Positions 9,459 through 62,688 of a DNA stretch of 64,000 bases are shown here, in pieces; the first letter of the stretch is position 1; each line of letters starts with the position of its first letter. This DNA comes from Aeoliella mucimassa (GTDB taxonomy: Bacteria; Planctomycetota; Planctomycetia; Pirellulales; Lacipirellulaceae): assembly GCF_007748035.1 (NCBI RefSeq), contig NZ_CP036278.1, forward strand, positions 2,604,001-2,668,000, given 5' to 3'. The position numbers and the translations under genes were made by a program. The notes beneath the pieces are model-generated. The model had not been told where the DNA came from. It saw only the letters and a program-made list of their open reading frames with translations, and ran no database searches.

Positions 9459-10394
9459 CTACTTCGCAGCACCGGCAGCGTCGCGGATGCGGAGCTGCGG
9501 TTTTTCGAGCACAACGGTGCTGTGCGGATCGACCGACTTGGTGATCCAGACGCTGGAGCCAATCACCGAATCGTGTCCGATGACGGTCTCGCCGCCGAGG
9601 ATGGTCGCATTCGCGTAAATCACTACGCGGTCCTCGATGGTGGGATGCCGCTTAAGGCCACGCACCAGGTTGCCTTCGCCATCGGTGGCGAAGCTCAACG
9701 CACCGAGCGTTACACCTTGATAGATCTTCACGTGCTCGCCGATGTGGCAGGTCTCGCCGATCACGACACCGGTGCCGTGGTCGATGAAAAAGTAGTTGCC
9801 AATGGTAGCACCAGGATGGATGTCGATGCCGGTGCGGCCGTGAGCCCATTCGCTCATCATCCGCGGGATGAAAGGAATATCGAGCTCGTACAGCAAGTGA
9901 GCAAGGCGATAGACCGTGATGGCTTCGAGACCCGGGTAGCAGAAAATCACCTCGTCGGGCGACTTGCATGCTGGGTCGCCATCGTAGGCGGCACGCACAT
10001 CGGTAGCCAGCGTCGATCGCAACTCAGGCAGCCGGTCAAGAAACAACATCGTCTTGGCCTGGCCCAAGGCTTCGAAGTCTTCGATCGTATTGCAGTCGCT
10101 GGTCGCGCCGGCTTCGTGGCGTAGGGCGCGGCCGATCTGCCGGGTAAGGCGGTCGTGTAGGCGGCCGATCAGGTCGCCGACGTAGAACTCGACATTGCTA
10201 CGATGGAGTCCTTCGCGACGGCGATATCCTGGAAACAGGATTTCGTCCAAGTCGTCCAGCACGGCGACCACTTCGTCGTAGCTCGGCAGCGGGCAGTGAC
10301 CTAGGTGGTTGATGCTGCCGAGGCTGTCGTACGTGCCGACGATGCGTTTGGTTAGATTGGGTAGTTGGTCTTTCAGGCGGAAATCGGTCGCCAT
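9459..10394 (-). CDS. cysE: Serine O-acetyltransferase
   Basis: A 311-residue enzyme that makes O-acetylserine from serine and acetyl-CoA, the first step of cysteine synthesis. The C-terminal half is the left-handed beta helix with hexapeptide repeats: [17 protein letters not shown] supplies the catalytic His-Asp region, followed by [22 protein letters not shown]. The N-terminal helical domain is somewhat long, as in the EpsC/SAT type. The ATG at 10394 is preceded by AAGGA at good spacing, whereas an ATG at 10403 would overlap that site. No cysK neighbour is visible. The gene converges on pgi. Confidence 0.93.
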
Positions 10395-44159: not shown

Positions 44160-44187
44160 TTGACCTAAGGCAATATAATAGTATCAT
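44160..44187 (+). promoter_or_regulatory. Candidate sigma70-type promoter for the GntR regulator operon
   Basis: TTGACC (44160-44165), a 16-bp spacer and TATCAT (44182-44187), about 55 bp before the ATG. A nearer TATAAT was passed over because it would leave a spacer of only 8 bp. Confidence 0.45.
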
Positions 44188-44242
44188 GCGGGCAACGACT
44201 CAAGTCGCTGGCGGTATTTCTTGTCTTTTCAGTTGTAGGGTC

Positions 44243-45331
44243 ATGGCTAAGCGAGCGGTTTCTATTACTCCGCAAATTGCTGATTTGGCGGAGTTGCTGA
44301 TCGAGGATATCAAGTCCAGGCAATTGCAGCCGGGCGATCGCTATTTCTCTACGGCCGAAGCTTCTGAGTTTTTGACGGTCAGTACGAGTGCCGCTAATCG
44401 TGCGTTGCAACTGCTCGCGCGGCGACAGATTATCTCGCGACAACAGCGACGTGGTGCATTTATACTCACTACTCCAGATACAACCGAACACTTGTTGCTG
44501 CACCGCGTGCATTTTCTCGTTCACCCACTCTATTTACGGACAGAAGGGGTTGGCAACGATCACATCCTGTTGGGGATGCAAAGCGAATTGCCGGGAGTTC
44601 ACGTTCAGATCAGCTTCCTGCCTCAGGGGGATGAAGTGGGTCTGGTGCAGCAACTTATAAGCCAGGCGTTAGGGGCTGACACTACCGACGGTTTTGTATT
44701 GGTGCGGGCGAGTTGCGAGACGCAGCGGCTCGTCTCAGGATCGGGTTTGCCTGCGGTGGTTCACGGATCGGTGTATCCCGGAATTCGTGGTCTGGCCCGA
44801 CTCGATCGCGATATGTGGGATACGGGCAAAATACTCACGAACTGGCTCCTCGAACAAGGTCATAAACGATTTGCGTATTTTGTCCGCCAAATCATCTACC
44901 CGGGCGATCATTCCACGCTCGACGCAATTTCCGCTGAGCTTGCGGGCGAAGGGTTTACCACCGATCGCCTGACCATGCGTGGATTGCCATCGGATATTCA
45001 CGCATCGATCGCCGAAATTAAGACCGTACTCGACACGCCCGATCCACCGACGGCGATCATCTGCCGTACGCGTCGCATGGCGGAAGCGGTAGACGAAGCG
45101 ATCAAACAGCTTGGATTGGAGCGAGGGAAGTTCGACATCACCTTTTGCGATTACTTCGCCCGCGACAAAGAAGAGGAGCGTTACGCGTTTGCGAAGCCGG
45201 TTGCCTCGGATGAGGAAATCGGTCACCACTTGGCCAAACTGCTGTTAGCTCAGACTCAAAACAGCATTGAAGAACCAGAATGTGTGGAAGTGCCAGTGGT
45301 GCTACAAGTACCGGGACGGCTTGGTTCCTAG
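44243..45331 (+). CDS. GntR-type transcriptional regulator with LacI-like sensor domain
   Basis: A 362-residue regulator. Residues 1-75 are a GntR winged helix: DLAELLIEDIKSRQLQPGDR, TAEASEFLTVSTSAANRAL and RRQIISRQQRRGAFI. The rest resembles the periplasmic-binding-protein-like sensor of LacI regulators, with WLLEQGHKRFAYFVRQII and DPPTAIICRTRRMAEAVDEAI. This combination typically senses sugars. The start at 44243 gives MAKRAVSI; the frame continues upstream into the promoter. It diverges from the sialidase-lyase pair and is 36 bp before the LamG gene, so it probably controls both sides of the locus. The ligand is presumably a sialic-acid-derived sugar, by context only. Confidence 0.88.
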   Translation: MAKRAVSITPQIADLAELLIEDIKSRQLQPGDRYFSTAEASEFLTVSTSAANRALQLLARRQIISRQQRRGAFILTTPDTTEHLLLHRVHFLVHPLYLRTEGVGNDHILLGMQSELPGVHVQISFLPQGDEVGLVQQLISQALGADTTDGFVLVRASCETQRLVSGSGLPAVVHGSVYPGIRGLARLDRDMWDTGKILTNWLLEQGHKRFAYFVRQIIYPGDHSTLDAISAELAGEGFTTDRLTMRGLPSDIHASIAEIKTVLDTPDPPTAIICRTRRMAEAVDEAIKQLGLERGKFDITFCDYFARDKEEERYAFAKPVASDEEIGHHLAKLLLAQTQNSIEEPECVEVPVVLQVPGRLGS

Positions 45332-47034: not shown

Positions 47035-48573
47035 ATGCGACGATTGAGGCGGTTTCTCTCGTTGGGAATGGTGGTTGTGTGCACTTGTGCGATGAGTAGC
47101 ACGCTGCACGCGGAAATTCACAAGCGAGTCGTATTTGAAAGCGGAAAGGAAGGTTACAACATCTTCCGTATTCCAACCATGGTGAAAGCGGCCAACGGCG
47201 ATATTCTCGCTTTTGCCGAAGCACGATCGGGCGGCGATGCCAGCGAAATCGACGTGGTGATGAAACGCTCCACCGACAATGGCGACACCTGGGGGCCGCT
47301 TCAGGTGGTGATCGAAAACGATCACTACCGCGGCTGGGATGGCCTGCCAACCGAAAACGTAACCGCCGGAAATCAGTCCCCTGTCGTCGACCTGCTCGAT
47401 CCTCAGCACCCAGGCCGAATCTGGATGCCCTTCACTCTCGAAAACGACCGAGTGTTTGTCACTTATAGCGACGACCATGGCAAGACCTGGCAAGCCGATA
47501 GCGATGGCCGCGCCCGTGAGATAACTGCTGCTGTCAAACCGGCTGGATGGGGATGGTACGCAACTGGCCCGGTGCACGGGATTCAACTTGAGCGCGGTAC
47601 GCACGCTGGGCGGTTGGTGATTCCCTCGGACCACACCATAAGCGGCGATTGGGGTGCCCATGTCGTGTATAGCGACGATCATGGCGAGACCTGGGCGCTC
47701 GGCGCCGTGTACGACGAGACAAGCGGTGTTATCAAGCCGAACGAAAACGTAGCGGTGGAACTGGTGGATGGCTCTCTCTATTTCAACTCACGCGACAACG
47801 GAACCGCCCCGGGAACTCGTTCCATCGCCTACAGTCGCGATGGCGGCTTGACCTACGACGGACCGTTTGTCGCTGAGCCTCAGCTCAGCAGTCCGGTGGT
47901 CCAGAATGCGGTAGTTCGCTTTCAGGCGACCGATGAAGGAGACGACCAAAACATTCTACTACACTCCGCGCCGTCGAATCCGACGAGTCGCAACGATATG
48001 ACCATTAGCGTGAGTTTCGACGAAGGAACCACCTGGGAAAAGTCGACCCTAATCCACCCGGGTCCGTCCGCCTACTCCGATCTGGTGAAAATCGATTCGC
48101 AACAGTTTGGCGTGCTTTGGGAAGGTGGAGACTCGCTGTACCAAGAGATCCTGTTCGGTGCGATGTCGTTCGACGATCTCGATCCGGTAGCATTCAATGG
48201 CGTGGAAGGAGACGTGAATCAGGACGGAATCGTTGATGCGCAAGATTTAGAAGCATTCGTCGCCAGTTGGGCTCCCAACTCGGACCGGTACTTCTTGGGA
48301 GGAGCTGATAGCTATATTAATGGCGACCTTAACTTCGATGGTACCCAGAATCTGCACGATGCAGTATTGCTACGTTCGTATCTACACGACGCGGGCGTCG
48401 CTACGGCTGGCCTGCAACCACTGTTTCACCCCGTTTCTGAGCCCGGTTCGCTACCGCTTGGGGTAGCTGGAGCTTTATCGCTGGTGCATTTTTCAAGAGC
48501 CCATCAGCACAACCGTAGTTCAGAGACCTCTTTTATTACCAATATGTTCACTACTCGATATTCTCTTCCATAG
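47035..48573 (+). CDS. Secreted sialidase with dockerin repeats and PEP-CTERM-like tail
   Basis: A 512-residue protein. Signal peptide to about STLHAE, then a GH33 propeller: FRIP at residues 44-47 and Asp-boxes STDNGDTW, SDDHGKTW, SDDHGETW and SFDEGTTW. FAEARSGGDASEIDVVM matches the active-site Arg and Asp region. After the propeller, two dockerin-type calcium repeats follow: GDVNQDGIVDAQDLEAFV and GDLNFDGTQNLHDAVLL. The tail has SEPGSLPLGVAGALSLVHF, a degenerate PEP-CTERM, but then 25 further residues where such signals normally stop. It is the exported partner of the lyase and transporter genes downstream. Confidence 0.88.
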   Translation: MRRLRRFLSLGMVVVCTCAMSSTLHAEIHKRVVFESGKEGYNIFRIPTMVKAANGDILAFAEARSGGDASEIDVVMKRSTDNGDTWGPLQVVIENDHYRGWDGLPTENVTAGNQSPVVDLLDPQHPGRIWMPFTLENDRVFVTYSDDHGKTWQADSDGRAREITAAVKPAGWGWYATGPVHGIQLERGTHAGRLVIPSDHTISGDWGAHVVYSDDHGETWALGAVYDETSGVIKPNENVAVELVDGSLYFNSRDNGTAPGTRSIAYSRDGGLTYDGPFVAEPQLSSPVVQNAVVRFQATDEGDDQNILLHSAPSNPTSRNDMTISVSFDEGTTWEKSTLIHPGPSAYSDLVKIDSQQFGVLWEGGDSLYQEILFGAMSFDDLDPVAFNGVEGDVNQDGIVDAQDLEAFVASWAPNSDRYFLGGADSYINGDLNFDGTQNLHDAVLLRSYLHDAGVATAGLQPLFHPVSEPGSLPLGVAGALSLVHFSRAHQHNRSSETSFITNMFTTRYSLP

Positions 48574-48591: not shown

Positions 48592-48641
48592 ATGATGGCG
48601 TACACACCTCTTAATCGTATGTGTGAATGGCGGTTCGCAAT
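48592..48641 (+). pseudogene. 5' fragment of the giant LamG gene, cut by an IS5-type element
   Basis: An AAGGTG box precedes ATG ATG at 48592. The fragment encodes MMAYTPLNRMCEWRFA and stops at the insertion point. Removing the element and one target copy joins it in frame to base 49686, restoring the leader WRFAILILAFVLTSGSSVQA. The restored gene has 1463 codons. The insertion looks recent because both the transposase and the split gene are otherwise intact. Confidence 0.9.
48633..48641 (+). repeat. Target-site duplication, left copy (9 bp)
   Basis: GTTCGCAAT directly before the left end of the IS element; exact match to 49677-49685. Nine base pairs is the known duplication length of the IS903 group. 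Confidence 0.95.
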
Positions 48642-49676
48642 GGCCTTGTTGAACAATTAGTCACAAACCTCCGTAAAAACTAACGTGGAATGGAACCACG
48701 TACCTTTTTTACGGAGATCGAACATGGCTACGAAAGAAAAACGAACCTACAAAGTCACGAACTGGAAGGAGTATAACAAGTCGCTCATCGAGCGTGGAAA
48801 CATCACTATTTGGTTTAGCGACGAGGCGTTGGAGAACTGGGAACATCCTAACGACCAGACAAAAGTCGGTCGCCCTTTTGTCTTCAGCGATACGGCGATC
48901 GAGTGCTTGCTGACGATTCGCGAACTGCTGAAACTTCCCTATCGGCAGACTGAGGGATTCGGCCGCTCGCTGGTGGCGATGTTGGGCGTCGAGGCAGCGA
49001 TTCCCAATTATTCTTCGCTCGCCAAGCGAGCCAGCAAGCTGAATGTTTCGCTCGATATCGCTAACAAGAGGGGCGACATCGATATCGTGGTGGATAGCAC
49101 CGGCATGAAAGTGTTTGGCGAGGGCGAATGGAAGATGCGGACGCATGGCAAGTCGAAGCGGCGGACATGGCGGAAGCTGCATTTGTCGGTGAATCCTGAC
49201 ACCCGCGAGATTGTGGCGGAGATTTTGACCGAGAACAGTTGCCACGATGCCGATGCGGTTCCCGAAATGCTGGAGCAGGTGGAGCAGCCCGTAAAAAAGT
49301 TTCACGGCGACGGTAGTTACGACAAGTGGAAGGTTTATGAAGGGCTGGAATCCGAAGGCATTGAGCCGGTGATTCCGCCGCAGCACAACGCCAAGATCAA
49401 ACAACATGGCAACTCTGCGGAGGAGCCTTTGCCCCGGGACGAGGCAATTCGTCAGATTCGACGCAAGGGGCGTAGGAGTTGGAAAGAGGAAGTGGGCTAT
49501 CATCGTAGAAGCTTGGCGGAAACGACCATGTACCGAGTGAAACAAAGCTTTGGGAGCCATCTCAAAAACCGAGTATTCGAAAACCAACAAACGGAAGCCC
49601 GCTTGCGCTGTAAAATCATCAATCAATTCACCCAACTCGGGCTTCCACAGTTCGAGTGGAGTTAGTCAACAAGGCC
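48642..49676 (+). mobile_element. IS903-group IS5-family insertion sequence, complete
   Basis: A 1035-bp element. Terminal inverted repeats start GGCCTTGTTGA (48642-48652), with the exact complement at 49666-49676; these closely resemble known IS903 ends. One transposase gene fills it. The 9-bp flanking duplication proves transposition into a chromosomal gene. Confidence 0.95.
48724..49665 (+). CDS. IS5-family (IS903 group) DDE transposase
   Basis: A 313-residue transposase, full length. Catalytic residues: Asp124 in DIVVDSTGMKVFG, Asp196 in KFHGDGSYDKW and Glu266 within the Y(2)R(3)E(6)K signature (Tyr259, Arg262, Glu266, Lys273). The KRRTWRKLHLSV strand is characteristic of the IS903 group. 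The ATG at 48724 follows an ACGGAG box. The stop is 1 bp before the right inverted repeat. No frameshift, so the copy may be active. Confidence 0.96.
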   Translation: MATKEKRTYKVTNWKEYNKSLIERGNITIWFSDEALENWEHPNDQTKVGRPFVFSDTAIECLLTIRELLKLPYRQTEGFGRSLVAMLGVEAAIPNYSSLAKRASKLNVSLDIANKRGDIDIVVDSTGMKVFGEGEWKMRTHGKSKRRTWRKLHLSVNPDTREIVAEILTENSCHDADAVPEMLEQVEQPVKKFHGDGSYDKWKVYEGLESEGIEPVIPPQHNAKIKQHGNSAEEPLPRDEAIRQIRRKGRRSWKEEVGYHRRSLAETTMYRVKQSFGSHLKNRVFENQQTEARLRCKIINQFTQLGLPQFEWS

Positions 49677-49685
49677 GTTCGCAAT
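49677..49685 (+). repeat. Target-site duplication, right copy (9 bp)
   Basis: GTTCGCAAT directly after the right inverted repeat; identical to 48633-48641. Confidence 0.95.
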
Positions 49686-49704
49686 ACTCATTCTCGCGTT
49701 TGTT

Positions 49705-52700
49705 TTGACCAGTGGCTCGTCGGTTCAGGCAGTGCTCGTTATGCAGTTCGACCCGAGCGATTCACGAACCTTGTTCATGAATGGTTACGAAGACAATCGA
49801 TACGGCACCGTGCCGGCGGCTGACTTTGGAGATCACGTGGGGTGGGTAATGGATACACGCGTTCCCAGCATTCCAGCTCCTGATCCGGATAACGGTCTTG
49901 ATGAGTTTCTCGATGCCCAGCAAGGAAATGTCGCAAATAAACCAATCCTTGGCTACCATCCAGCCGGAATGGTGCTCGACTACCTCGATTCGAGCGACAA
50001 CGATAGCTTGCTTATATTCGAAGACGACGTGGCCTTGGCCGATGGATACAACGGGGCGGCCGATGTAAATATGGGCTCGTTGTTGTTAACGGCTCGAGTC
50101 GATCCCAGCGGCACTGGCAATAGCTACTTCTTCGACTTCCGCGACGATGCAGCCATTGGTGGGGGAACGAATTCTAATGATGGGTTTGGGCTGCGATATA
50201 ATCACGATACCGGCGAGCTAGAAGGCATGATCAAGCAGTCGGTAGCGGTCTCGGTGCCGGTGCCGTCTGGCGAGTGGTTTGCAGCCAGTTTGGTATGGAA
50301 TGGACCTAGTTCAACCGCAACGCTCAAAGTGGAGACATTGGCTGGCTCGAATTCAATCAGCGGCGCAGCTTCGGACGTAGCCCTCGACGTCGATCGCGCT
50401 CGGATGGGGAACAACTCCAATGGCAATAGCGGCCTAAAAGGGCAGATCGGTGGAGTCTTGTACTACAACGATATCGACGACCACACATCCACCTTCAATT
50501 CGCTAGCCCAAGACTACGTGGTCCCCTTGCCCGAACTGACCATCGATCGCGAAACCGGAAATATTTCAATCACGGTACCTGCGGGTGCTAGTGCCCTGAC
50601 TAATATCGCTGGCTACTCCATTACTTCTGATGCCGAGACTTTAAATCCTGGGCAATGGCTATCGATTGCCGAAAACTACGATGCGGGGAGCCCAGGCCCG
50701 AATCAAGTCGACCCCGACAACAATTGGACCAAGCTCAGTGCATCCAATCAGCGTTCGGATCTTACGGAACTCGAATTCGAGCAAAGCGGTGGTGCCAACA
50801 ACGGAGCTGATTTTGTCGCTGGTAGCAGCATGAACTTAGGTAACGCTTGGATTCGCTATTACAACGAAGATGTCAAAGCGAGCCTTGTTTTGGACGACGG
50901 CACGGTGATGCCGTTGCAGGTGAACTTTGTCGGCAATGGGGGTGAATCGTTTGAGTTTGGCGACCTCGATTTCGATGGCGATATTGACCAAAACGATTTC
51001 TTCGACGTATTTGTTCCTAACTACGGGGTCGATACCTCGTCGACGGTGGTTAGCCAACCAGAGCGTTATGGACTGGGCGATCTCAATGATGACGGTTCTG
51101 TGTCGCTTGAAGATTTCATTCTGCTGAACGATGCCTATCTCGCTGCTAATCCTGGCGCGGCCTCGTTGTCGCTGGAAGGAGTCTCGGTGCCCGAACCGAC
51201 CACTGCAGTAATAATGGGTATGGTCTTGCTGGTTTTGTCGTGTTGCTCGCCCTGGCGTAGACTACTTCTCAGCGTCGCAGTGTGTTTGTGTGCCACGGCC
51301 ATGCTCACCCCTTCGGCGAATGCTGCAATCGGCGGGGTGCTGGATGTTGATTTCGAGTATCTCACGCCTGACACAACTATCGGTGATGGCAGCCGAATTC
51401 AAGACTTGTCTGGCAACCGTTACCATGGCTTCTGGGGAGGTGGTGCCAGCGATGCAAACAACACGCCGATTGAATTGGCCTACGCCGGTAGCACCACGGT
51501 AATCAACAACGAAGATGCTAATGGTTTTGTGATCCTTCGCGACGGTCTGGGCGACGGCGGCAGCGAGGCCCCCAACGCGTGGTTTGGTGAGGAAGCAACC
51601 CCTTCCCCCTACTTCACGCTCGGGGCAAACACCAGTTACACCTTTGAGGCGGTGTTGAACTGGAATGGCGATGACCGCGGTCGCGATGGCATCATGGGAC
51701 AAACTGGTGGCGCCGAATGGTGGATTCGCGAAGACTCGGGAAATATCGAGTACGTGTTCGACGATGGGCCCAATCGTCATATTAATACAGGGACTATTTA
51801 TGTTGGCGATCTTATTGACAACGCAGAGTGGCATCACCTCGGCATCACGTACGAGCGCGCTACAAGTGATCCGACTCAGGTGACAGTCACCACGTACCTG
51901 GACTACACCGAAGTCTATCAAGAGGTGTTGTCGGCCGGGTTGGGAGAGGTTGGCGACGGAACTGCCGACGTACGCTTGGGAGCCTATAACACAAGTTCTT
52001 CCAACCGATTCGATGGTCTGATAGACCACTTCCGAATCAGCGACCAGGTGTTGTCGACCAACGAGTTTCTTCCGCTGCCTGAGCCTCCCTCGTACGAGTT
52101 GGTTGTAAACAAGGATACAGGGCTGGTCATGTTGGTGAACCAAACAGGCACCGATCTCACGTTCGACTCATATCGGCTGACCAGCGAGAGCGACAGTTTG
52201 AATCCCTCCGGATGGTTGAGCCTCGACGATCAAAACGTGGCCGCTCCCGAAGACTGGACGGAACTGGGAAGCACCGCCAGTGAACTTTCCGAAGGTATCT
52301 TCGGAAGCACCTGGACGCTTGCGAGTGGAGAGTTTCAGTCGCTGGGAACCGCGTACGCCGATCTCGGCCAGGAAGACACTAGTCTGAAGTTTGAGTACCA
52401 CGTGCAAGGAGAATCGGGCTTCCGCGAGATAATGGTCAGCTACGTGGTTGGTCTGCAAGGTGATTTCAACGACGATGGAATTGTTAACCTCGCCGACTAC
52501 ACTGTTTGGCGCGACAATCTTGGTGCCGACGAGTCGACCATCGCTAACAAAGGCGACGGGGCGAATGGTGTCGACATGGCAGACTACAATCTGTGGAAAG
52601 CCAACTTCGGCTTGTCGAGTTCGCCAGTAAGTGGCCTGTCGGAAGCAGCGGTGCCGGAACCTTCTACGCTCTTCATGTTGGTGATTGGAGTCGTTGCGGT

Positions 52701-54027
52701 TGCAGGTCGAAAGGTGCGAGTAGCCGGTCAAAAGTTGTTACTCACGTTGCTTTCGGCTTCGTGGTGTGTGCTTGCTAGCAATGCGAACGCCACAACCAAT
52801 GATCGCCAGTACTTGTTTGGCGATTCGGGTTCCACGGACCCAGCGGTCGGCGGAGTCTCGGTGGGCGAGGGAGTCGCGATGGGCTTCCTTTTCAATTCCA
52901 ACATGGTTACCGGCGACGAAATCGGCCCCAGCGGTGGATATCAAGACCTGATCGTCGATGGTGCGACCTACACCAGCGTATCGAACCGACCAGGCGCTGG
53001 GGCTGGCGAGTGGGGGGCAAACTTTAACGGTGCCGCATCGCTTTCGACCCCACTGAGTTTGAATCGCCCCAGCGATTTCTGGGACAATACGACTTTCTTC
53101 GTGAATGGAGAGTTCCCTAAGAACTACGAAGGTATCTATTCGCACGGTATTCAATTGTGGGCAAGACCCGATACGACCGCCCTTACTGCTGGAGATCGCC
53201 AGGACCTGGTGATCGACACCCCAGAGAATGGAGTGTATATCACCGACTCAGGTAACTGGGGACTACAGTTCGATGGTGGTGGTGACTCGGGGGTGTCAGT
53301 GGCTAGCACTCTCGACTCCAATGGTTGGGCTCACGTGATGCAGGTCGGCGGCTATCAGAACCTCAGTCAGGGGAACTCGGCCTACCAGAGCGTGCTCTTT
53401 GTGAATGGGGTTGCCGTTTATGCAACGAGTGAAACCCAGAATATGGATGCCGACTCCACATCGCTTTCGGTCGGTAGCAATCAAGCAGGCGATGGCAACT
53501 TCTACACCGGAGTGATGGACAATCTCGAGATGTTCCTCTGGGGCGACAACAGCGACGAACTTGGTGCCGACGGTTCGGCCGGTGGAACTAACGGAATCGG
53601 CGGTCTAAATGCCGACGGTCAAAACTGGGGAGCTTTCTCTCTGTTTGATGACAACCACTACATCTCTCACGAACTCAGCAGCCTTGGTATCGGCACCTTG
53701 CAGCCGGGCGATGTGGATCTCGACGGTTCGGTCGATGCCGATGATGTAACAGCCTTAGTAGAAATGTGGGATACCCCCGATCACGTGGTGAATGGCATCA
53801 CGATCGGCGATTGGGGAACACGACAAAGTGGCGATCTGAACGTGGATGGTAGAGTTGACCTCTATGATGCGGTGATTCTAAGAAGCGAACTGCTAGCGGC
53901 CGGATTGGGTTCCATTGACCTAAGCATTTTTGCTGGTGGCAATCAGGTGCCCGAGCCAAGCTCGTTCGCTGTCTTACTGTTGGCAACCGTTGTGGCCGGA
54001 GTGGCATTTCGCAAGGTACGGGCCTAG
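49705..54027 (+). CDS. Giant triple-unit LamG/dockerin/PEP-CTERM protein, body of the IS-split gene
   Basis: The body downstream of the IS; numbering is from the TTG at 49705, which is not the true start. It contains three complete units in one frame. Unit 1 (to about residue 515) has a LamG domain, dockerin repeats (FGDLDFDGDIDQNDF, GDLNDDGSVSLEDF) and VPEPTTAVIMGMVLLVL ending in WRR at residues 495-519. Unit 2 starts at once with RLLLSVAVCLCATAMLTPSA and ends with VPEPSTLFMLVIGVVAVAG at 983. Unit 3 starts KLLLTLLSASWCVLASNANA and ends VPEPSSFAVLLLATVVAGV at 1415. Each unit thus resembles an independent exosortase substrate with its own signal-like segment. Without the original start, expression is doubtful. 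Confidence 0.85.
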   Translation: MTSGSSVQAVLVMQFDPSDSRTLFMNGYEDNRYGTVPAADFGDHVGWVMDTRVPSIPAPDPDNGLDEFLDAQQGNVANKPILGYHPAGMVLDYLDSSDNDSLLIFEDDVALADGYNGAADVNMGSLLLTARVDPSGTGNSYFFDFRDDAAIGGGTNSNDGFGLRYNHDTGELEGMIKQSVAVSVPVPSGEWFAASLVWNGPSSTATLKVETLAGSNSISGAASDVALDVDRARMGNNSNGNSGLKGQIGGVLYYNDIDDHTSTFNSLAQDYVVPLPELTIDRETGNISITVPAGASALTNIAGYSITSDAETLNPGQWLSIAENYDAGSPGPNQVDPDNNWTKLSASNQRSDLTELEFEQSGGANNGADFVAGSSMNLGNAWIRYYNEDVKASLVLDDGTVMPLQVNFVGNGGESFEFGDLDFDGDIDQNDFFDVFVPNYGVDTSSTVVSQPERYGLGDLNDDGSVSLEDFILLNDAYLAANPGAASLSLEGVSVPEPTTAVIMGMVLLVLSCCSPWRRLLLSVAVCLCATAMLTPSANAAIGGVLDVDFEYLTPDTTIGDGSRIQDLSGNRYHGFWGGGASDANNTPIELAYAGSTTVINNEDANGFVILRDGLGDGGSEAPNAWFGEEATPSPYFTLGANTSYTFEAVLNWNGDDRGRDGIMGQTGGAEWWIREDSGNIEYVFDDGPNRHINTGTIYVGDLIDNAEWHHLGITYERATSDPTQVTVTTYLDYTEVYQEVLSAGLGEVGDGTADVRLGAYNTSSSNRFDGLIDHFRISDQVLSTNEFLPLPEPPSYELVVNKDTGLVMLVNQTGTDLTFDSYRLTSESDSLNPSGWLSLDDQNVAAPEDWTELGSTASELSEGIFGSTWTLASGEFQSLGTAYADLGQEDTSLKFEYHVQGESGFREIMVSYVVGLQGDFNDDGIVNLADYTVWRDNLGADESTIANKGDGANGVDMADYNLWKANFGLSSSPVSGLSEAAVPEPSTLFMLVIGVVAVAGRKVRVAGQKLLLTLLSASWCVLASNANATTNDRQYLFGDSGSTDPAVGGVSVGEGVAMGFLFNSNMVTGDEIGPSGGYQDLIVDGATYTSVSNRPGAGAGEWGANFNGAASLSTPLSLNRPSDFWDNTTFFVNGEFPKNYEGIYSHGIQLWARPDTTALTAGDRQDLVIDTPENGVYITDSGNWGLQFDGGGDSGVSVASTLDSNGWAHVMQVGGYQNLSQGNSAYQSVLFVNGVAVYATSETQNMDADSTSLSVGSNQAGDGNFYTGVMDNLEMFLWGDNSDELGADGSAGGTNGIGGLNADGQNWGAFSLFDDNHYISHELSSLGIGTLQPGDVDLDGSVDADDVTALVEMWDTPDHVVNGITIGDWGTRQSGDLNVDGRVDLYDAVILRSELLAAGLGSIDLSIFAGGNQVPEPSSFAVLLLATVVAGVAFRKVRA

Positions 54028-54096
54028 GCCCGCGCATTTATCGGTAGGGAGTGATCTATCGCTTCGTAAGTCCCGATCTTTTCTAGGAGCTTTGTG

Positions 54097-55143
54097 ATGT
54101 TAGGAGTAGAGGTCAAACGTTCGCGTGCGACAGGGTTTACGCTCGTGGAACTGCTGGTGGTGATTGCCATTATTGGCATCCTCGTAGCCCTACTGTTGCC
54201 GGCAGTGCAATCGGCTCGCGAAGCGGCGCGTCGCACCGCTTGTCAGAATAACTTCAAGCAAGTCGGTATCGCGCTGCACAATTATCACAGTTCGAAGAAG
54301 GTCTTTCCACCGGGAACCAACTTCACGGAGAATACTTCGGAGTCCGCCTGCCCTGGCATAAAGCCTGGTATTCGCAGTTTTGGCTGGAGCACATTTATTC
54401 TTCCCTACATGGAAGAAGAGGTGCTGTACGACCAGCTCGACTTTGACCTCGAGGTGTTTGCGGGAGTCAATTGGGATGCTTCCACTACGCTGGTAGAAGG
54501 TTACGTGTGTCCTAGTGAAGTGAACGACGCCAAGTGGGTCGACTGCTGTTCGGGGGCCGATCATGGTCTAGGCCCAGGCAACGACTGGCGACTTTCGAAT
54601 ATGGTGGGCATTGGTGATAGTGTCGAAGCCCACTGTTGGTTATACCAACCCCATTCCATTGGGCGCGGTATCTTCCACAACTACAGCAAGGTATCGGTGG
54701 GTAAAATCACTGATGGAACCACTAATACGATTGCCGTTGGTGAAATCACCAGTGGTATGGGAGTGGATGCCAATAGTAATCAGGCATGGATTGGAGTCAC
54801 GTGGGTCACTCGCGCGATTTCTGACGTGTACGAAGGCATCAATGGTCCTGGTACTTTGCCAGGGGGTCGGGACGACGGTATCGATCCTTTTGACGGCGAT
54901 GGCGGCAATCGCCACGACGAATACCACCGCGAAAATGGCCTGTCGAGCTATCATCCCGGTGGGGCTCATCTGCTGTTTGCCGACGGTAGTACCCAGTTTG
55001 TCAGTGACGACGTGAACCAAGACGTACTATTCGCCTGGGCGACCCGTGCCGACGGCGAGACCGTGTCGGGCGATACCGCAGGTGGGGTGAATCGGTTGCC
55101 TCCGTCGAGCGGCGGCGGTGGCACCGGGGGGCCGATTCGCTAA
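54097..55143 (+). CDS. DUF1559 prepilin-like protein
   Basis: A 348-residue protein. The type IV pilin-like leader is GFTLVELLVVIAIIGILVAL, followed by the planctomycetal DUF1559 start LLPAVQSAREAARRTACQNN and NYHSSKKVFPPG. The middle has GWSTFILPYMEEEVLYDQL, the end has HPGGAHLLFADGSTQFVSDD, all standard for the family. Such proteins are abundant in planctomycetes and are thought to be pseudopilins or surface-layer-associated; the precise role is unknown. AGGAG precedes the ATG at 54097; a GTG three bases earlier is less likely. It lies about 70 bp after the giant gene. Confidence 0.93.
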   Translation: MLGVEVKRSRATGFTLVELLVVIAIIGILVALLLPAVQSAREAARRTACQNNFKQVGIALHNYHSSKKVFPPGTNFTENTSESACPGIKPGIRSFGWSTFILPYMEEEVLYDQLDFDLEVFAGVNWDASTTLVEGYVCPSEVNDAKWVDCCSGADHGLGPGNDWRLSNMVGIGDSVEAHCWLYQPHSIGRGIFHNYSKVSVGKITDGTTNTIAVGEITSGMGVDANSNQAWIGVTWVTRAISDVYEGINGPGTLPGGRDDGIDPFDGDGGNRHDEYHRENGLSSYHPGGAHLLFADGSTQFVSDDVNQDVLFAWATRADGETVSGDTAGGVNRLPPSSGGGGTGGPIR

Positions 55144-55758: not shown

Positions 55759-56712
55759 ATGAACGGCCATGCCTTCCGGCTAATTGCTGCTACCTACACT
55801 CCATTTAACCATGATCTCTCCGTCGACTACTCAGCCATCCCGGCCTACGCGGCTGAGTTGGTGAAGGATGGCATTCGCGAGATCTTCGTGAATGGCACAA
55901 CCGGCGAAAGTCTTTCGCTTACCGTCGACGAACGCATGCAGGCGGTGGAAGCCTGGAAGAACAGCGGCAGCGATTTAGAGCTCATCGTGCACGTTGGACA
56001 CAATTGTCTGGAAGAGTGCCAACGGATGGCCAAGCACGCCGAGCAGAATGGTGTGGGGGCTATCTCGGCGATGTCGACCACATTCATCCGCCCTCGCAAG
56101 CTCGACGACCTGATCGAGTACGTAGCTCAGATTGCCCTGGCGGCTCCAGAAACCAAGTTCTACTACTATCATATTCCGTCCATGAGCGGTGTGCCGGTCG
56201 ATATGGACGCCTTCATCGCGCGGGCATGCGAAGAGATTCCCAACTTCGCTGGTGTCAAATACACCCACGAAGATCTCGGTGAATTTGCTGCCTGCTTGGC
56301 CAAGTGGAAAGATACCATCGATCTGATGTTCGGCCGCGATGAATTGCTGTTGCCAGCCACAGCGCATGGAGCCCAAATGGCAGTTGGAAGTTTCTACGGG
56401 CTGGTTCCCGAGGTGTTTCGCAATATCATCCAGGCAGTCTGGTCCGGCGATCTCGACTTGGCTCGCGCCTGGTCGCTGTATTCAAACAAGTTGATCGATG
56501 CTTGCATTAAGGTGGGAGTTCCGGCCGCTGGCAAGTACATGTTGGCGCAAAAAGGGATCGGCACTGGCAAGCTTCGGCTGCCGCTGCGCGAGCTCGATGC
56601 AACACAGAAGCTGTGGTTGCAAGAGCAGTTCGACGCGCTAACTCCGCCCAGCAATATCTCGGCCGACTCCAACAGTTCGTCAGCATCCATGGGGCTTGCT
56701 GGTGGTTCTTAA
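55759..56712 (+). CDS. nanA: N-acetylneuraminate lyase
   Basis: A 317-residue cytoplasmic aldolase that splits N-acetylneuraminate into N-acetylmannosamine and pyruvate. FVNGTTGESLSLT binds pyruvate, Tyr137 sits in FYYYHIPSMSGV and Lys167 in GVKYTHEDL forms the Schiff base. The YYYHIP motif is characteristic of NAL, including animal-type NPL, and separates it from dihydrodipicolinate synthase. The C-terminal tail is Ser- and Asn-rich. It stands directly before the mutarotase-symporter fusion, an arrangement that strongly supports sialic acid use. Its role is clearer than that of the second lyase at 41861. Confidence 0.93.
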   Translation: MNGHAFRLIAATYTPFNHDLSVDYSAIPAYAAELVKDGIREIFVNGTTGESLSLTVDERMQAVEAWKNSGSDLELIVHVGHNCLEECQRMAKHAEQNGVGAISAMSTTFIRPRKLDDLIEYVAQIALAAPETKFYYYHIPSMSGVPVDMDAFIARACEEIPNFAGVKYTHEDLGEFAACLAKWKDTIDLMFGRDELLLPATAHGAQMAVGSFYGLVPEVFRNIIQAVWSGDLDLARAWSLYSNKLIDACIKVGVPAAGKYMLAQKGIGTGKLRLPLRELDATQKLWLQEQFDALTPPSNISADSNSSSASMGLAGGS

Positions 56713-56803
56713 TCGTATCGATCTAGTGAGCGGCTGTTGAGACAAGCTTGCGATGTGTCCTCTCTGCTCGACTGGCTAGTGTTCGTTGTTTGGGGAGACA
56801 GGC

Positions 56804-59434
56804 GTGGGCGGAACTCTCAAGCTCGGTGGTTGGTTGTTTGCGGTATTATGGTTGACCGTGAATTGCATGGCAGGCGAACCTCAAACCGAATCGCCCAACG
56901 GTTTTCTCCATTGGCAATCGCTCCCTAAACTCCCCAATCCAGTTGGAGTGGCGGGGCCATTCGTCGGGGTCGATCACGATGCTCTCGTCGTAGCGGGAGG
57001 AGCCAATTTTCCTAAGCAACCTTATTGGGAAAACGACAAGGTCTGGCACGCGGATGCCTGGGTGCTGACTCGCGACAGCGAAGAGAGCTACCAATGGCAT
57101 TCAGGATTTGCGCTGGATGCTCCTATGGCCTACGGGGCGGTCGCTAATACGTCGAAGGGCATCGCTTGTCTGGGGGGAGACGATGGCAAGCAGGTTTCCA
57201 AGAAGTGCTTCTTGCTCCGTTGGATGCCCGAATCACAAAAATTAGAGCGAACTCCCCTGCCCGACCTACCGGCACCTTGCGCGTATGGCGCAGCGACCAG
57301 CTTCGGCGACGTGGTCTACCTCGCTTGTGGTCAGGCAGATCGATCGCTACTGAGTGCAACAACTAACCTCTGGCGGCTGGATCTTAACGATCCCAAGCCG
57401 GCCTGGGAAAGCCTTGCTCCGTTGCCAGGGCCTGAGCGAGCTTTCAACGATACGATTGCCCAACACAATGGCTTCAATACGTGTGTGTATGTGTTCGGGG
57501 GCCGCTGCGTGAAGAGCGAGAGTACGTCGGCCGACGACATCGTTCCCCTCAGCGATCTCTACGAGTTCAACCCAACCACAAACACCTGGCGACGGCGTGC
57601 CGATCTGCCGCATCCACTGATGGCGGGCACCGCCATACCGGCTGGTCAGTCCCATATCATTGCTCTATCGGGAGCGGATGGTTCGCTGTGGGAGCAAGCT
57701 GCCGAGCTAAAGCTTGATCATCCTGGTTTCAAGAAACAGTCGCTCGCATACCATACGATTACCAATACGTGGGTCGAGGCCGGCGAAACACCAGCCAACG
57801 CGGTGACCACTCCCGCGACCCAGTGGGGAGATCGATACGTGCTCGCTTCCGGCGAACGGCAACCAGGCGTTCGGACCGATGAGGTCTGGTTGATCGAACT
57901 GAAGCAACAGGATCATTCGTTTGGTGCGATCGATTTCTCGGTATTGGGTGTTTATCTTATTGCGATGGTCGGCGTTGGTGTGTTCTTTGCTCGGCAAAAC
58001 AAGAGTACCGACGATTACTTTCGCGGAGGTCAAAAGGTACTTTGGTGGGCGGCCGGATGCAGTATTTTTGCCACGATGCTTAGTTCCATCACATTCATGG
58101 CGATCCCCGCTAAGGCGTATGCTCAGGACTTGGTGTACTTGCTGGGAAATTGCATGATTCTGGCAGTCGCGCCGATTGCTGTGTACTTGGCGTTACCTTT
58201 CTTCCGCCAGATCGATGCAACGAGTGCGTACGAATACTTGGAGAAACGCTTTAATCGTTTGGTGCGACTGTTTGCGAGCGCATCGTTCACCTTGTTTCAC
58301 TTGTTTCGGATGGGCATCGTAATGTCCCTGGCCGCACTCACGCTGGCTACGGTTACACCACTGTCGCCAGTCGAGAGTGTTCTGCTGATGGGAGTGTTGA
58401 GTATCCTCTACTGCACCCTCGGTGGGGTGGAAGCAGTGATCTGGACCGATACCATCCAAACGGTGGTGCTTCTCGGCGGTGCTGTAGTCTGTCTATCAGT
58501 GATGCTCTGGGGCACCGGAGATTCTGCGGAGAGTTGGTCTCAACTCGCCTGGCAAGAAGGCAAGCTGCAATTTGCCAATCTGCATCTTGATCCCACGAGT
58601 GCTTCGTTGGCGTTGTGGGTAGTGGTGATCGGCGGAATTGGCCAGAACATTTCTTCGTACACTGCCGATCAAGCCGTGGTGCAACGCTACATGACGACAC
58701 CTGATCAAAGTCGCGCGGCCCGTTCCATTTGGTTTGCTGCCATCCTGGCGATTCCGGCGAGCTTCTTGTTCTTTTTCATGGGAACTGCGTTGTTCTTATT
58801 TTACCACTCGCATCCAGAGAAGCTTGATCCTACGTTCACAACCGATCAAATCCTGCCTCTGTTCATCGCCAATGAGTTGCCAGTTGGTATTGCAGGCCTA
58901 CTGGTTGCTGGCATCTTCGCCGCTGCTCAGTCGACGGTTTCTACCAGCATGAATTCTACTGCAACAGCGGTGGTCACCGATTTTCTTCGTCCATTCGCTG
59001 TACTGAGATCGGAGCACGGATATTTACAAGCTGCCCGCGGCTTCACCTTGCTGTTCGGTGTGATCGGTACCGTGATCGCACTGTTGTTTGTCAGTCCCGA
59101 CATTCGCTCGCTGTTCGACCAATTCGTCAAGGTTATCGGGCTCTTCATGGGCGTGTTGGGGGGGCTGTTTGCATTGGGCATGCTCACACGACGTGCCACT
59201 GGAATAGGAGCCTTGGTAGGTGCGATAGCTGGCGCAGTGATCATGCTCGGCATGCCCTACTATTCAGATATCAATGGCTTCTTGTACGCAACAATCGGAG
59301 TCACTTTCTGTTTTGCGATTGGCTACCTTGTAAGTCTCCTGGTGCCTGCGCAGCAGGCGAATATCGCAGGGCTGACACTTTTTTCCCTCAAAAAGTCCTC
59401 TTCTCGCGGCCCAAGCCAGTCGGTTGTGGGTTAA
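56804..59434 (+). CDS. NanM-like Kelch mutarotase fused to sodium:solute symporter
   Basis: An 876-residue fusion read from GTG 56804, preceded by GGGGAG; a TTG at 56786 is weaker. Signal sequence to about residue 23, then a six-bladed Kelch propeller (about 30-370): PNPVGVAGPFVGVDHDALVV, VVAGGANFPKQPYWEND, MAYGAVANTSKGIACLGGDD and ERAFNDTIAQHNG match NanM. From about residue 375 about 13 membrane helices form an SSS symporter: DFSVLGVYLIAMVGVGVFFA, STDDYFRGGQK, LSSITFMAIPAKAYAQD and QNISSYTADQAVVQRYM. The propeller should lie in the periplasm, turning alpha- into beta-sialic acid and passing it to the transporter. The neighbouring nanA supports this. Confidence 0.9.
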   Translation: MGGTLKLGGWLFAVLWLTVNCMAGEPQTESPNGFLHWQSLPKLPNPVGVAGPFVGVDHDALVVAGGANFPKQPYWENDKVWHADAWVLTRDSEESYQWHSGFALDAPMAYGAVANTSKGIACLGGDDGKQVSKKCFLLRWMPESQKLERTPLPDLPAPCAYGAATSFGDVVYLACGQADRSLLSATTNLWRLDLNDPKPAWESLAPLPGPERAFNDTIAQHNGFNTCVYVFGGRCVKSESTSADDIVPLSDLYEFNPTTNTWRRRADLPHPLMAGTAIPAGQSHIIALSGADGSLWEQAAELKLDHPGFKKQSLAYHTITNTWVEAGETPANAVTTPATQWGDRYVLASGERQPGVRTDEVWLIELKQQDHSFGAIDFSVLGVYLIAMVGVGVFFARQNKSTDDYFRGGQKVLWWAAGCSIFATMLSSITFMAIPAKAYAQDLVYLLGNCMILAVAPIAVYLALPFFRQIDATSAYEYLEKRFNRLVRLFASASFTLFHLFRMGIVMSLAALTLATVTPLSPVESVLLMGVLSILYCTLGGVEAVIWTDTIQTVVLLGGAVVCLSVMLWGTGDSAESWSQLAWQEGKLQFANLHLDPTSASLALWVVVIGGIGQNISSYTADQAVVQRYMTTPDQSRAARSIWFAAILAIPASFLFFFMGTALFLFYHSHPEKLDPTFTTDQILPLFIANELPVGIAGLLVAGIFAAAQSTVSTSMNSTATAVVTDFLRPFAVLRSEHGYLQAARGFTLLFGVIGTVIALLFVSPDIRSLFDQFVKVIGLFMGVLGGLFALGMLTRRATGIGALVGAIAGAVIMLGMPYYSDINGFLYATIGVTFCFAIGYLVSLLVPAQQANIAGLTLFSLKKSSSRGPSQSVVG

Positions 59435-59694
59435 ATCTGAATTTGCTTAATAAGAAGATCGTAGGCTTGCAGCATCGCGCACCGCACTAGACGCTTTCGC
59501 GCGGAATGGTTGCGGGTACAATAGTCAGCACGTGCGGAGATCGGCGAGGGCCATTCCTGCACGCACCCACCAGGCGGTCCACCATTAGGTTGGGCTATCC
59601 CGATTCCTACCTCGTTGATGCTCTGCCGATGCGCATTGATCGCATCCAAAGAGCAGCAATGCCTCAGGAGAACTCGATTTACTCGGACGGATTT

Positions 59695-62688
59695 ATGATG
59701 AACCGAAACGTCGCTTTGCCCCTGTTTACCCTCTTGGCAATTCTTGCCGCAGCCAGTGTTTCCCCTTTGCGAGCCCAGGATGCGGCGGAGTGGAAGCCGG
59801 TTGACCCGCCGATGCTCACCCGTTGGGCCAAGGATATTGATCCGAATCAGCCGCTGCCCGAGTATCCTCGTCCGCAGTTGACTCGTTCCGACTGGATGAA
59901 CCTCAATGGGCTGTGGCAATACGCGATAACCGACAAGCAGTCAACGCGTCCGATTAACTGGGATGGCCAGATCCTCGTTCCTTATCCCGTGGAAAGTGCC
60001 TTGAGCGGTGTTAAGCGATCGCTCAAGCCTGAGGATGCTCTGTATTACAGTCGCAAGTTCGAAGTACCCAGCGATTGGAGCGGAAAACGCATTCTCTTGC
60101 ACTTCGGTGCTGTCGACTACCGCTGCCAAGTGTTTGTGAATTACAAACGCGTCGGCAGTCACGAGGGAGGTTACGATCCCTTTAGTTTCGACATTACCCC
60201 CTACCTGACCGGTGACAAAGAGCAATCGCTTATGGTAAAAGTCACCGACCCCACCTACACCGAAGGTCAACCGCGCGGCAAGCAAACGCTTAGTCCCGCC
60301 GGCATTATGTACACGCCGACTTCCGGTATCTGGCAAACCGTCTGGCTCGAACCCGTCGCCGATGGCGGTGTTGAAGATCTGATAATCGTACCGGATGTCG
60401 ATGGCGAATCGGTAAAGGTCACCGTCGATCTCTATGGCGATTCCAAAGATACGGTTTCCGTCGAAGTGAAAGGTGGTGAGTCGATCAGCGGCGCCGCAGG
60501 CGAAGAGTTGACCGTTCCTGTGAAATCGCCGCGACTCTGGAGCCCCGAAGATCCTTATCTGTACGACATGACGATTCAGGTCGAACAGCAAGGCAAGGTT
60601 GTCGACGAAATCGGAACCTACTTCGGTATGCGATCCATCAAGAAAGCCGAAGTCGATGGTGTTCAGCGCTTGCTGCTCAACGGCAAGCCGCTGTTCATGT
60701 TTGGTCCGCTCGATCAGGGCTTCTGGCCCGATGGTGTGTATACCGCGCCGACGGATGAAGCTCTGAAGTATGATATCGAAATCACCAAGAAGCTTGGATT
60801 CAATACGACACGTAAGCACATCAAGGTCGAACCCGCTCGGTGGTACTACCATGCCGATCGGTTGGGACTGATTGTCTGGCAAGACATGCCTTCGGCCAAC
60901 TCGTACGACACCCCACCCGGCGGTCGTCCTGCAGTCGATAAAGATGCCTACGAAACCCAACTTAAGGCCTTGATCGACAATCTGGAGAATCATCCAGCGA
61001 TCGTGATGTGGATTGTGTTTAACGAAAGCCAAGGCAAGCACGATACCGCGAAGCTGGTTCGCATCGTTCGAGACCTCGATCCTTCGCGTCTGGTGAACGA
61101 AGATAGTGGTTTCCAAGGCCATGGTGGACCTTACCGGGGATTCGGCGACTTGTTCGACTGCCACCCCTACCCTGCCCCGCGAGTGTTCGATGCCCCTGAG
61201 GGCAAGGCCTTCGCCTTGGGCGAGTACGGTGGTATCGGCCTGAAAATGGGCAATAACCCCTGGCAAGCCAAGGGATGGGGTTACACGACGACCAAAAACT
61301 CGCGCGAACTCGAAGACCTGTATGCCCAGTTCACTGGCATGCTCAAGAAGTTCAACGAAGAGAATGGTCTCACCAGTGCCATCTATACTCAGCTGACCGA
61401 CGTCGAAATCGAAATCAATGGTTTGTTGACTTATGATCGCCAACTGAAGATCGATCCCGAGTGGATCGCCAAGGCGAATCGCTTTGAGTGGGACGGTCCC
61501 AAGTACGTTCCATTGGTAGCCGACTCGCGAACTTCGTCTGTTGAGTACACCTACACGTTCACCCAACCTGGCGACGAGTGGATGCAACCAGCTTGTGACA
61601 CCAGCAGCTGGAAGACCGGCGAAGGTGGTTTTGGCACCCGCGAAACGCCAAACATCGGAAAGCTTGGCACCAAGTGGAACACATCCGACATCTGGCTGCG
61701 TCGCGAAGTTGATCTGCCAGAATTGGATGCCGAGCAACTGTCGCAGTTGGTGCTTCAGATCTATCACGACGACGACGTGAAGGTCTACTTCAATGGTGTG
61801 TTGGCCATTGATAAGAGCGGTTTCGAATCGAACTACGCCAGCGTTAGCGTAAGCGATGAAGCACGACAGGCCCTCAAGCCTGGCGAAAAGAACTTGGTTG
61901 CCATCCATTGTCATCAAGGCACTGGTGGGCAGTACATTGATTTCGGTCTGGGAGTGCTCGATCCGAATCGTCCGGTTTCTAGTGAATCGGCTTCTGCCGA
62001 CGGAAAAGGAGAGCAGGTTAGCAAAACCTTCACCCGCACCGCGCAAGTAGAACAGCAGCTTGATTACTTGTTTTACTTGCCGAGCGACTACGATGCGAAC
62101 CGCACGGAAGGCTGGCCACTGATGCTCTTCCTGCACGGGGCCGGAGAACGTGGTTCCGACGTGTCGAAGGTAAAGGTACATGGCCCACCGAAACTGGTAG
62201 CCAACGGGAAAGACCTGCCGTGCATTCTGGTTTCTCCGCAATGCCCGAAAGGCCGCGTGTGGAACGTCGACGAGCTGAATGGCCTGCTCGATTCGATCAT
62301 GGAAGAGTACAACGTGGATGCCGATCGTGTGTATCTCACTGGATTGAGCATGGGAGGTTTTGGAACCTGGAATCTGGGAACCTCAAATCCCGAACGTTTT
62401 GCAGCCCTCGCGCCCATCTGTGGTGGCGGCGACGAGATTGCCGTGATGCTGGCCGCCGACGAGAAGAAAGAAACGCTTCGCAACTTGCCCGTGTGGGCGT
62501 TCCACGGAGAGATTGATCCCGTAGTGCCGCTGGAGGCCTCGCAAAAGATGGTCGACGCGCTCAAGAAGATTGGGTCGGAGAAGGTGAAGTTCACCACCTA
62601 TCCCGAAGCGGCTCACGACTCGTGGACCCAAACCTACGACAATCCCGAGTTCTTTAAGTGGATGTTCGAGCAAAAGCGGGGCAAATAG
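59695..62688 (+). CDS. GH2 glycosidase fused to an alpha/beta-hydrolase esterase
   Basis: A 997-residue exported fusion. After the signal peptide (AILAAASVSPLRAQ) comes a GH2 set: sugar-binding domain YPRPQLTRSDWMNLNGLWQY, Ig-like domain, and a TIM barrel with acid/base Glu444 (WIVFNESQGK) and nucleophile Glu510 (GEYGGIG). Residues of about 605-770 look like a jelly roll (DDDVKVYFNGVLAID). The C-terminal third is a serine hydrolase: LMLFLHGAGERGSD, GLSMGGFGTW with Ser885, and AAHDSWTQTY with the His. It could remove an acyl group and cut the freed sugar in one protein. Starts at 59659 and 59698 are also possible. Confidence 0.9.
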   Translation: MMNRNVALPLFTLLAILAAASVSPLRAQDAAEWKPVDPPMLTRWAKDIDPNQPLPEYPRPQLTRSDWMNLNGLWQYAITDKQSTRPINWDGQILVPYPVESALSGVKRSLKPEDALYYSRKFEVPSDWSGKRILLHFGAVDYRCQVFVNYKRVGSHEGGYDPFSFDITPYLTGDKEQSLMVKVTDPTYTEGQPRGKQTLSPAGIMYTPTSGIWQTVWLEPVADGGVEDLIIVPDVDGESVKVTVDLYGDSKDTVSVEVKGGESISGAAGEELTVPVKSPRLWSPEDPYLYDMTIQVEQQGKVVDEIGTYFGMRSIKKAEVDGVQRLLLNGKPLFMFGPLDQGFWPDGVYTAPTDEALKYDIEITKKLGFNTTRKHIKVEPARWYYHADRLGLIVWQDMPSANSYDTPPGGRPAVDKDAYETQLKALIDNLENHPAIVMWIVFNESQGKHDTAKLVRIVRDLDPSRLVNEDSGFQGHGGPYRGFGDLFDCHPYPAPRVFDAPEGKAFALGEYGGIGLKMGNNPWQAKGWGYTTTKNSRELEDLYAQFTGMLKKFNEENGLTSAIYTQLTDVEIEINGLLTYDRQLKIDPEWIAKANRFEWDGPKYVPLVADSRTSSVEYTYTFTQPGDEWMQPACDTSSWKTGEGGFGTRETPNIGKLGTKWNTSDIWLRREVDLPELDAEQLSQLVLQIYHDDDVKVYFNGVLAIDKSGFESNYASVSVSDEARQALKPGEKNLVAIHCHQGTGGQYIDFGLGVLDPNRPVSSESASADGKGEQVSKTFTRTAQVEQQLDYLFYLPSDYDANRTEGWPLMLFLHGAGERGSDVSKVKVHGPPKLVANGKDLPCILVSPQCPKGRVWNVDELNGLLDSIMEEYNVDADRVYLTGLSMGGFGTWNLGTSNPERFAALAPICGGGDEIAVMLAADEKKETLRNLPVWAFHGEIDPVVPLEASQKMVDALKKIGSEKVKFTTYPEAAHDSWTQTYDNPEFFKWMFEQKRGK

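Follow-up and report, generated by a model that had tools for sequence, protein, structure and literature searches.

Internal PEP-CTERM signals in a candidate secreted polyprotein of Aeoliella mucimassa and in related planctomycete reading frames

How a single reading frame comes to hold three copies of a signal that normally closes a protein is the question raised by a locus of the planctomycete Aeoliella mucimassa. The frame in question, at 49705-54027 (+) of a 64-kb stretch (contig NZ_CP036278.1, positions 2,604,001 to 2,668,000; hereafter the window), is open across 1440 codons with no internal stop, while the PEP-CTERM signal, through which exosortase substrates are sorted, lies near the C-terminus ‘virtually without exception’ according to Haft et al. 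2006 (PMC1569441). An earlier note on this DNA had reported three PEP-CTERM tails in the frame; the tails are present, although the positions given for them (495, 983 and 1415) each point to the preceding residue, PEP starting at residues 496, 984 and 1416. From the evidence presented below, the gene is likely to encode a secreted polyprotein that would yield several surface proteins once signal peptidase and exosortase had cleaved its hairpins.

In the window protein, each of the three PEP motifs is followed by a hydrophobic helix and basic residues, two of these copies being internal and the third terminal, whereas no hydrophobic helix can be recognized by eye behind a fourth PEP, that at residue 792. 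A search of the whole protein against Pfam placed PEP-CTERM (PF07589) and LamG (PF13385) on three stretches each, all at an E-value of 1 or better, while NCBIfam returned TIGR02595 on two stretches. As a whole, the protein is thus assigned by its sequence to the PEP-CTERM exosortase substrates, with internal copies that are atypical. The earlier note had also given each unit its own LamG-like and dockerin parts. Unit 1 on its own, however, has no Pfam match at 0.01, and Dockerin_1 (PF00404) was assigned by Pfam to a single stretch, in unit 3, the dockerin-like Asp-rich repeats of units 1 and 2 being recognized by eye only. The proposal that the first two tails run directly into a new signal-peptide-like segment with an AxA-type site was confirmed at both junctions, where a basic loop (net +2 and +4, respectively) leads to a second hydrophobic stretch ending in ...PSANA/AIGG (nt 51324) at junction 1 and ...SNANA/TTND (nt 52791) at junction 2. 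Both internal sites display the features expected of a signal peptidase I substrate, i.e., a basic start, a hydrophobic core and small residues at -3 and -1, and the frame comprises several putative products with signals between them.

The cleanest of the tests of these signals is one in which unit 3 was located by its mature part alone, the PEP motif not being used, and from which matches weaker than 1e-15 or starting late (that at locus L076 among them) were excluded. Among 47 distinct fused third units (54 rows before the removal of seven loci that repeat the same contigs), all 47 possess a PEP within 110 residues upstream, compared to none of nine third units that are first in their frame or stand alone; each of the latter starts with its own signal-peptide-like stretch, as judged by eye. 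The junctions were also compared between orthologues. Across 11 reciprocal-best pairs among 40 three-unit frames, the mature parts are identical at 8461 of 12919 positions (65%) and the hairpins at 328 of 931 (35%), while the PEP residues are identical at 63 of 63. Of 181 junction windows, 136 have an AxA within 14 residues after their second hydrophobic stretch; when these windows were shuffled 500 times with composition preserved, the mean was 89 and the maximum 111, so that the AxA signal reflects alanine richness in part, but not entirely; these shuffles supersede a looser control, in which AxA was found in 81 of 104 junction windows and in 126 of 1204 windows of mature parts. In all 181 junctions, the measured loop carries a net charge of at least +2, which agrees with the need of a hairpin for a cytoplasmic turn, and the spacing from PEP to AxA is 42-50 residues in 126 of them.

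The observation is real, and larger than the earlier note stated. Searches, which were confined to Planctomycetota, matched the window protein to many long frames of its own genome, and 26 fused frames with 41 internal junctions were identified in A. mucimassa, 13 of them with three or more units and 13 with two. Of 33 stretches taken from the genome, three hold the exosortases, and the count covers the other 30 together with the window. All told, 90 frames with 181 junctions were collected from 31 genomes, i.e., 21 of the same family and 10 of eight other families of the order; these counts are not frequencies, since the loci were chosen for their matching, and two doubtful frames flagged by script (L030 and L098, the latter at 10101) are left out of them. 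Examples of long series are a frame of eight units in 2298 residues (L131, genome G359), one of seven units in 2427 residues (L139, G376) and one of at least 10 units in 2531 residues that is truncated by the end of its contig (L130, G359). In addition, L155:4958-7744 (+) contains two near-identical junctions 380 residues apart with no in-frame terminal PEP tail, and this frame is possibly decaying or frameshifted.

The junction profile (A2; 36 rows, 59 positions) was built partly from fused junctions of A. mucimassa, including both window junctions, and led to eight of the 26 frames of that genome. Across the order, 72 of 117 genomes match it at 1e-7, many of the rows covering only the half that corresponds to an ordinary tail, and these were not counted as polyproteins. 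Across the phylum, matches at 1e-9 were obtained in 8 of 294 genomes, with 22 candidates scored per genome, and the only full-length stop-free junctions outside A. mucimassa in this sample are those of G135 and G217, both outside the order. A profile of unit 3 matched at 1e-40 in 24 of 43 genomes of the family, representing 12 of its 14 genera; at 1e-45, the A. mucimassa genome was the only one among 294 of the phylum to match, a weak negative because only up to four candidates per genome were scored.

A search of orthologues for separate as opposed to fused forms, as the earlier note had suggested, returned the same three fused units with similar neighbours in a different genus (G014), where each unit corresponds to the unit at the same position in the window frame, with matches of 52, 62 and 65% from the first to the third. 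This orthologue is preceded by genes for a GntR regulator and a BNR sialidase with dockerin and followed by those for a DUF1559 protein and a DHDPS-family lyase; the window has these genes in the same order, plus an intervening LamG PEP-CTERM gene, an insertion sequence (IS) and a small protein. Within the collection, first units find their best match in another first unit in 39 of 39 cases, last units in a last unit in 40 of 40, and middle units in a middle unit in 36 of 40, and because best matches keep their position in this way, the three-unit order is probably older than the spread of the paralogues. Growth by tandem duplication is indicated by sequence identity in some frames, with units 2 and 3 of L021 sharing 99.5% of their residues along a stretch of 217. 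Of 271 units, 43 are closer to a unit of their own frame than to any unit from the other frames of the set. Unfused tandem PEP-CTERM genes also occur close together in the A. mucimassa genome (L023, L026 and L027), and two frames place the DRxY unit first (L024 and L106); the existence of unfused tandem genes (L026, L027) and of reordered frames indicates that units can stand alone. An arrangement that reads as an unfused look-alike of a junction occurs at L158:7250-7520 (-), where a PEP-CTERM tail is succeeded immediately, in the same frame, by a stop and then by an ATG that opens a signal-peptide-like segment.

The layout suggests how such a polyprotein might be processed. Export would begin at the signal peptide of unit 1, and the internal PEP-CTERM helix would act as a stop-transfer segment with PEP outside and the basic loop inside, upon which the second hydrophobic stretch would serve as a fresh signal sequence and re-export the next unit. 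Signal peptidase would cut after AxA to create the free N-terminus of the following unit, while exosortase would cut at PEP, the C-terminus of the preceding unit being freed or anchored. Both cuts would occur on the outer face of the membrane, with the chain threaded out and in at each hairpin, and the hairpin, typically about 45 residues, would be discarded. For the window gene, the predicted products are three separate LamG/dockerin surface proteins in equal amounts. A broader proposition, to which we incline with somewhat less assurance, is that the repeated stop-transfer/signal hairpin is a planctomycete polyprotein linker that joins two to at least 10 exosortase substrates, in which case exosortase would act internally and a C-terminal position would not be a rule.

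Several points weigh against a cleaved polyprotein. Haft et al. 2006 (PMC1569441) suggest that a PEP-CTERM may not work when its tail is much longer. Across the reciprocal-best pairs, both members of which had been found via PEP, no more than 34 of 44 AxA positions coincide. The search for AxA was weighted towards this motif, and 45 of the 181 windows are without it. The unit 3 match is absent at 1e-40 from 19 of the 43 family genomes, and the allele in the window itself no longer has its native start, which an IS has separated from the rest of the gene.

It is unlikely, though the best placed of the rivals, that signal peptidase alone cuts, the upstream units keeping the hairpin as a two-pass anchor and exosortase acting on the terminal tail only. 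The second helix with AxA indeed forms a complete signal-peptide end, and the literature searched gave no precedent of internal exosortase action; yet a mere anchor needs no PEP, which makes the invariance of this motif between orthologues amid drifting hairpins, and its presence ahead of every fused third unit located without its use, difficult to accommodate. An even less probable alternative is an uncut chain, in which a single protein would span the membrane in at least two hairpins and display several lobes at the surface. The single open frame agrees with this, as cutting is deduced from the signals, but PEP and AxA would then be conserved without being needed, and the units are also found as separate genes and in other orders, and hence appear able to stand alone.

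Regarding origin, the earlier note had offered two ideas, a polyprotein cut by exosortase and signal peptidase or a recent fusion of three tandem paralogues by stop loss; the former is favoured and the latter is not, given a fused layout that recurs in 26 frames of the genome, keeps its order in another genus and extends to nine families of the order. That the frames are nearly neutral stop-loss fusions with relic internal signals is accordingly very improbable, despite the tandem unfused genes in the same genome, the successive tail, stop and ATG at L158, and the tandem growth seen in L021. Stop loss is likely as the origin of the fusions, yet fails as a full account, with order and signals kept across genera at 52-65% identity. 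Moreover, the full-length matches listed for the junction profile in the A. mucimassa genome comprise 33 without a stop and three with a stop inside (150 of 601 candidates scored), a comparison that favours fused forms given that the profile derives partly from fused junctions of this genome. A sequencing or assembly error can be practically dismissed: the genome is in a single contig, A. mucimassa Pan181 being reported as closed in PMC13315336, and the same layout occurs in 31 genomes. An error or a lone stop loss was rejected in view of the genome and family surveys.

The hairpin layout has counterparts elsewhere. In the structural polyproteins of flaviviruses, a hairpin of a stop-transfer and a signal helix lies between units, with one cut by signal peptidase; the layout here is alike, but the proteins are unrelated, the host is a bacterium and exosortase is proposed to make a second cut. 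FbcH, the cytochrome b/c1 polyprotein of Bradyrhizobium, contains a second product with an internal signal peptide that is cut by signal peptidase, and differs in having two dissimilar subunits, no exosortase signal and no repetition of units. To our knowledge, bacteria seldom possess polyproteins that are processed into separate products. GlyGly-CTERM/rhombosortase and MYXO-CTERM/myxosortase resemble the present system in their tripartite signal and dedicated membrane protease, but are described as C-terminal and rely on another motif and protease. PEP-CTERM substrates (PF07589, TIGR02595) share the PEP motif, the hydrophobic helix, the basic end and the presence of exosortase genes in the genome; the known ones carry the signal near the C-terminus according to PMC1569441, whereas here it is also internal and followed by a new signal-peptide-like stretch. 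In the literature searched, no description of PEP-CTERM or exosortase polyproteins, or of bacterial polyproteins cut by signal peptidase, was found, and the only hit for multiple, internal or tandem PEP-CTERM was Haft et al. 2006, which uses the phrase in another sense. A layout known from viral polyproteins was thus not found described in this literature for bacterial sorting-signal proteins.

As the exosortase system has so far been defined by a C-terminal signal (PMC1569441), a widespread class with several internal signals would depart from that definition. If the proposed processing is correct, the annotation of such frames, as one giant protein or as several products, would change, they would provide natural multi-site substrates for testing exosortase action, and surface proteins would be made in fixed ratios from one frame.

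The 5' end of the window gene requires separate consideration (Table 1). The TTG at 49705 was rejected as the native start, as an IS interrupts the signal peptide of unit 1. The ends of this element, GGCCTTGTTGA, are inverted, with 11-base perfect inverted ends, and it is flanked within the signal peptide by a perfect 9-bp target duplication, GTTCGCAAT. When the empty site is translated with one copy of the duplication, its first ATG lies at 48592 and it reads MMAYTPLNRMCEWRFAILILAFVLTSGSSVQA followed by VLV, which is signal-peptide-like as judged by eye. Owing to this insertion, the 5' end of the window allele is probably damaged. The genome contains at least 40 full copies of the IS5-family element, that of the window included (40 of 76 candidates scored), which suggests recent activity; five 71-bp IS end pieces abut full copies, and one further copy extends up to the point where a second polyprotein frame (L021) begins.

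Table 1. Features of the polyprotein gene and its neighbours, in window coordinates
Feature	Position	Strand	Basis or remark
GntR-type regulator with periplasmic-binding-protein-like domain	44186..45331	+	Pfam
BNR sialidase-like protein with dockerin, directly upstream of gene	47035..48573	+	Pfam
Native start and n-region of unit 1 signal peptide, left of IS	48592..48641	+	Empty-site translation
Left copy of 9-bp target duplication GTTCGCAAT	48633..48641	+	IS end mapping
IS, IS5-family transposase gene 48685-49665	48642..49676	+	Inserted in polyprotein gene
Right copy of 9-bp target duplication	49677..49685	+	IS end mapping
Rest of h-region and end (SSVQA) of unit 1 signal peptide	49686..49731	+	Empty-site reading
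Unit 1, mature part	49732..51189	+	No match to Pfam alone at 0.01; dockerin-like repeats by eye
Junction 1: PEP, hydrophobic, basic loop, hydrophobic, ANA	51190..51324	+	45 residues from start of PEP to ANA; junction profile 52.3 bits, stop-free
Unit 2, mature part	51325..52653	+	LamG PF13385
Junction 2: PEP, hydrophobic, basic loop, hydrophobic, ANA	52654..52791	+	46 residues from start of PEP to ANA; junction profile 61.5 bits, stop-free
Unit 3, mature part, starts TTNDRQY	52792..53949	+	LamG, dockerin type I
Terminal PEP-CTERM tail and stop	53950..54027	+	Pfam
DUF1559 prepilin-like protein, directly downstream	54094..55143	+	Pfam
DHDPS-family lyase, possibly N-acetylneuraminate lyase	55759..56712	+	Family by search; substrate inferred from neighbours
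N-acetylneuraminate epimerase-like kelch domain fused to sodium:solute symporter	56786..59434	+	Domain search

With two sialidase-like genes, a DHDPS-family lyase and an epimerase-transporter fusion, the window locus looks like one for the use of sialic acid or sialoglycans, as judged from gene content. Elsewhere, the polyprotein frame L013 adjoins a sialidase-like gene and L016 a fucosidase, and we infer that the units are glycan-binding surface proteins. The predicted structure of unit 3 (mean pLDDT 57.5) returned 36 structure matches at an E-value of 0.001 or better, with a TM-score by query of 0.31 or less, to a wide variety of proteins with lectin-like domains (pentraxin, sialidase lectin, laminin and receptor-binding domains); these only suggest a ConA-like fold. 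A prepilin of the DUF1559 type was considered as a constant neighbour and rejected as such, being frequent but not defining: the motif is found in the first or second downstream gene on the same strand for 32 of the 90 frames by the wider of two patterns, and the neighbour is DUF1559 by Pfam for the window and L074. Beside the epimerase-symporter fusion, the window also contains a GH2 glycosidase fused to an esterase-like domain (59506-62688).

An exosortase (PF09721) was identified at three places in the A. mucimassa genome, and in all 14 other polyprotein genomes tested, compared to 1 of 14 control genomes; this is no proof of internal cutting, as an exosortase is expected in any genome rich in PEP-CTERM proteins. 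At L160:3229-8454 (-) (G000:C1 near 1484638), a single frame of 1742 residues combines an exosortase with a TPR-like region, recognized by eye, of very great length, and a small protein bearing a PEL tail is encoded directly upstream; exosortases are also found in frames of 1739 residues in a genome of the same genus (G001) and of 1769 residues in G014. Finally, a 60KD_IMP/YidC-like protein with PDZ domains is encoded near a three-unit polyprotein at L019:1809-4283 (-).

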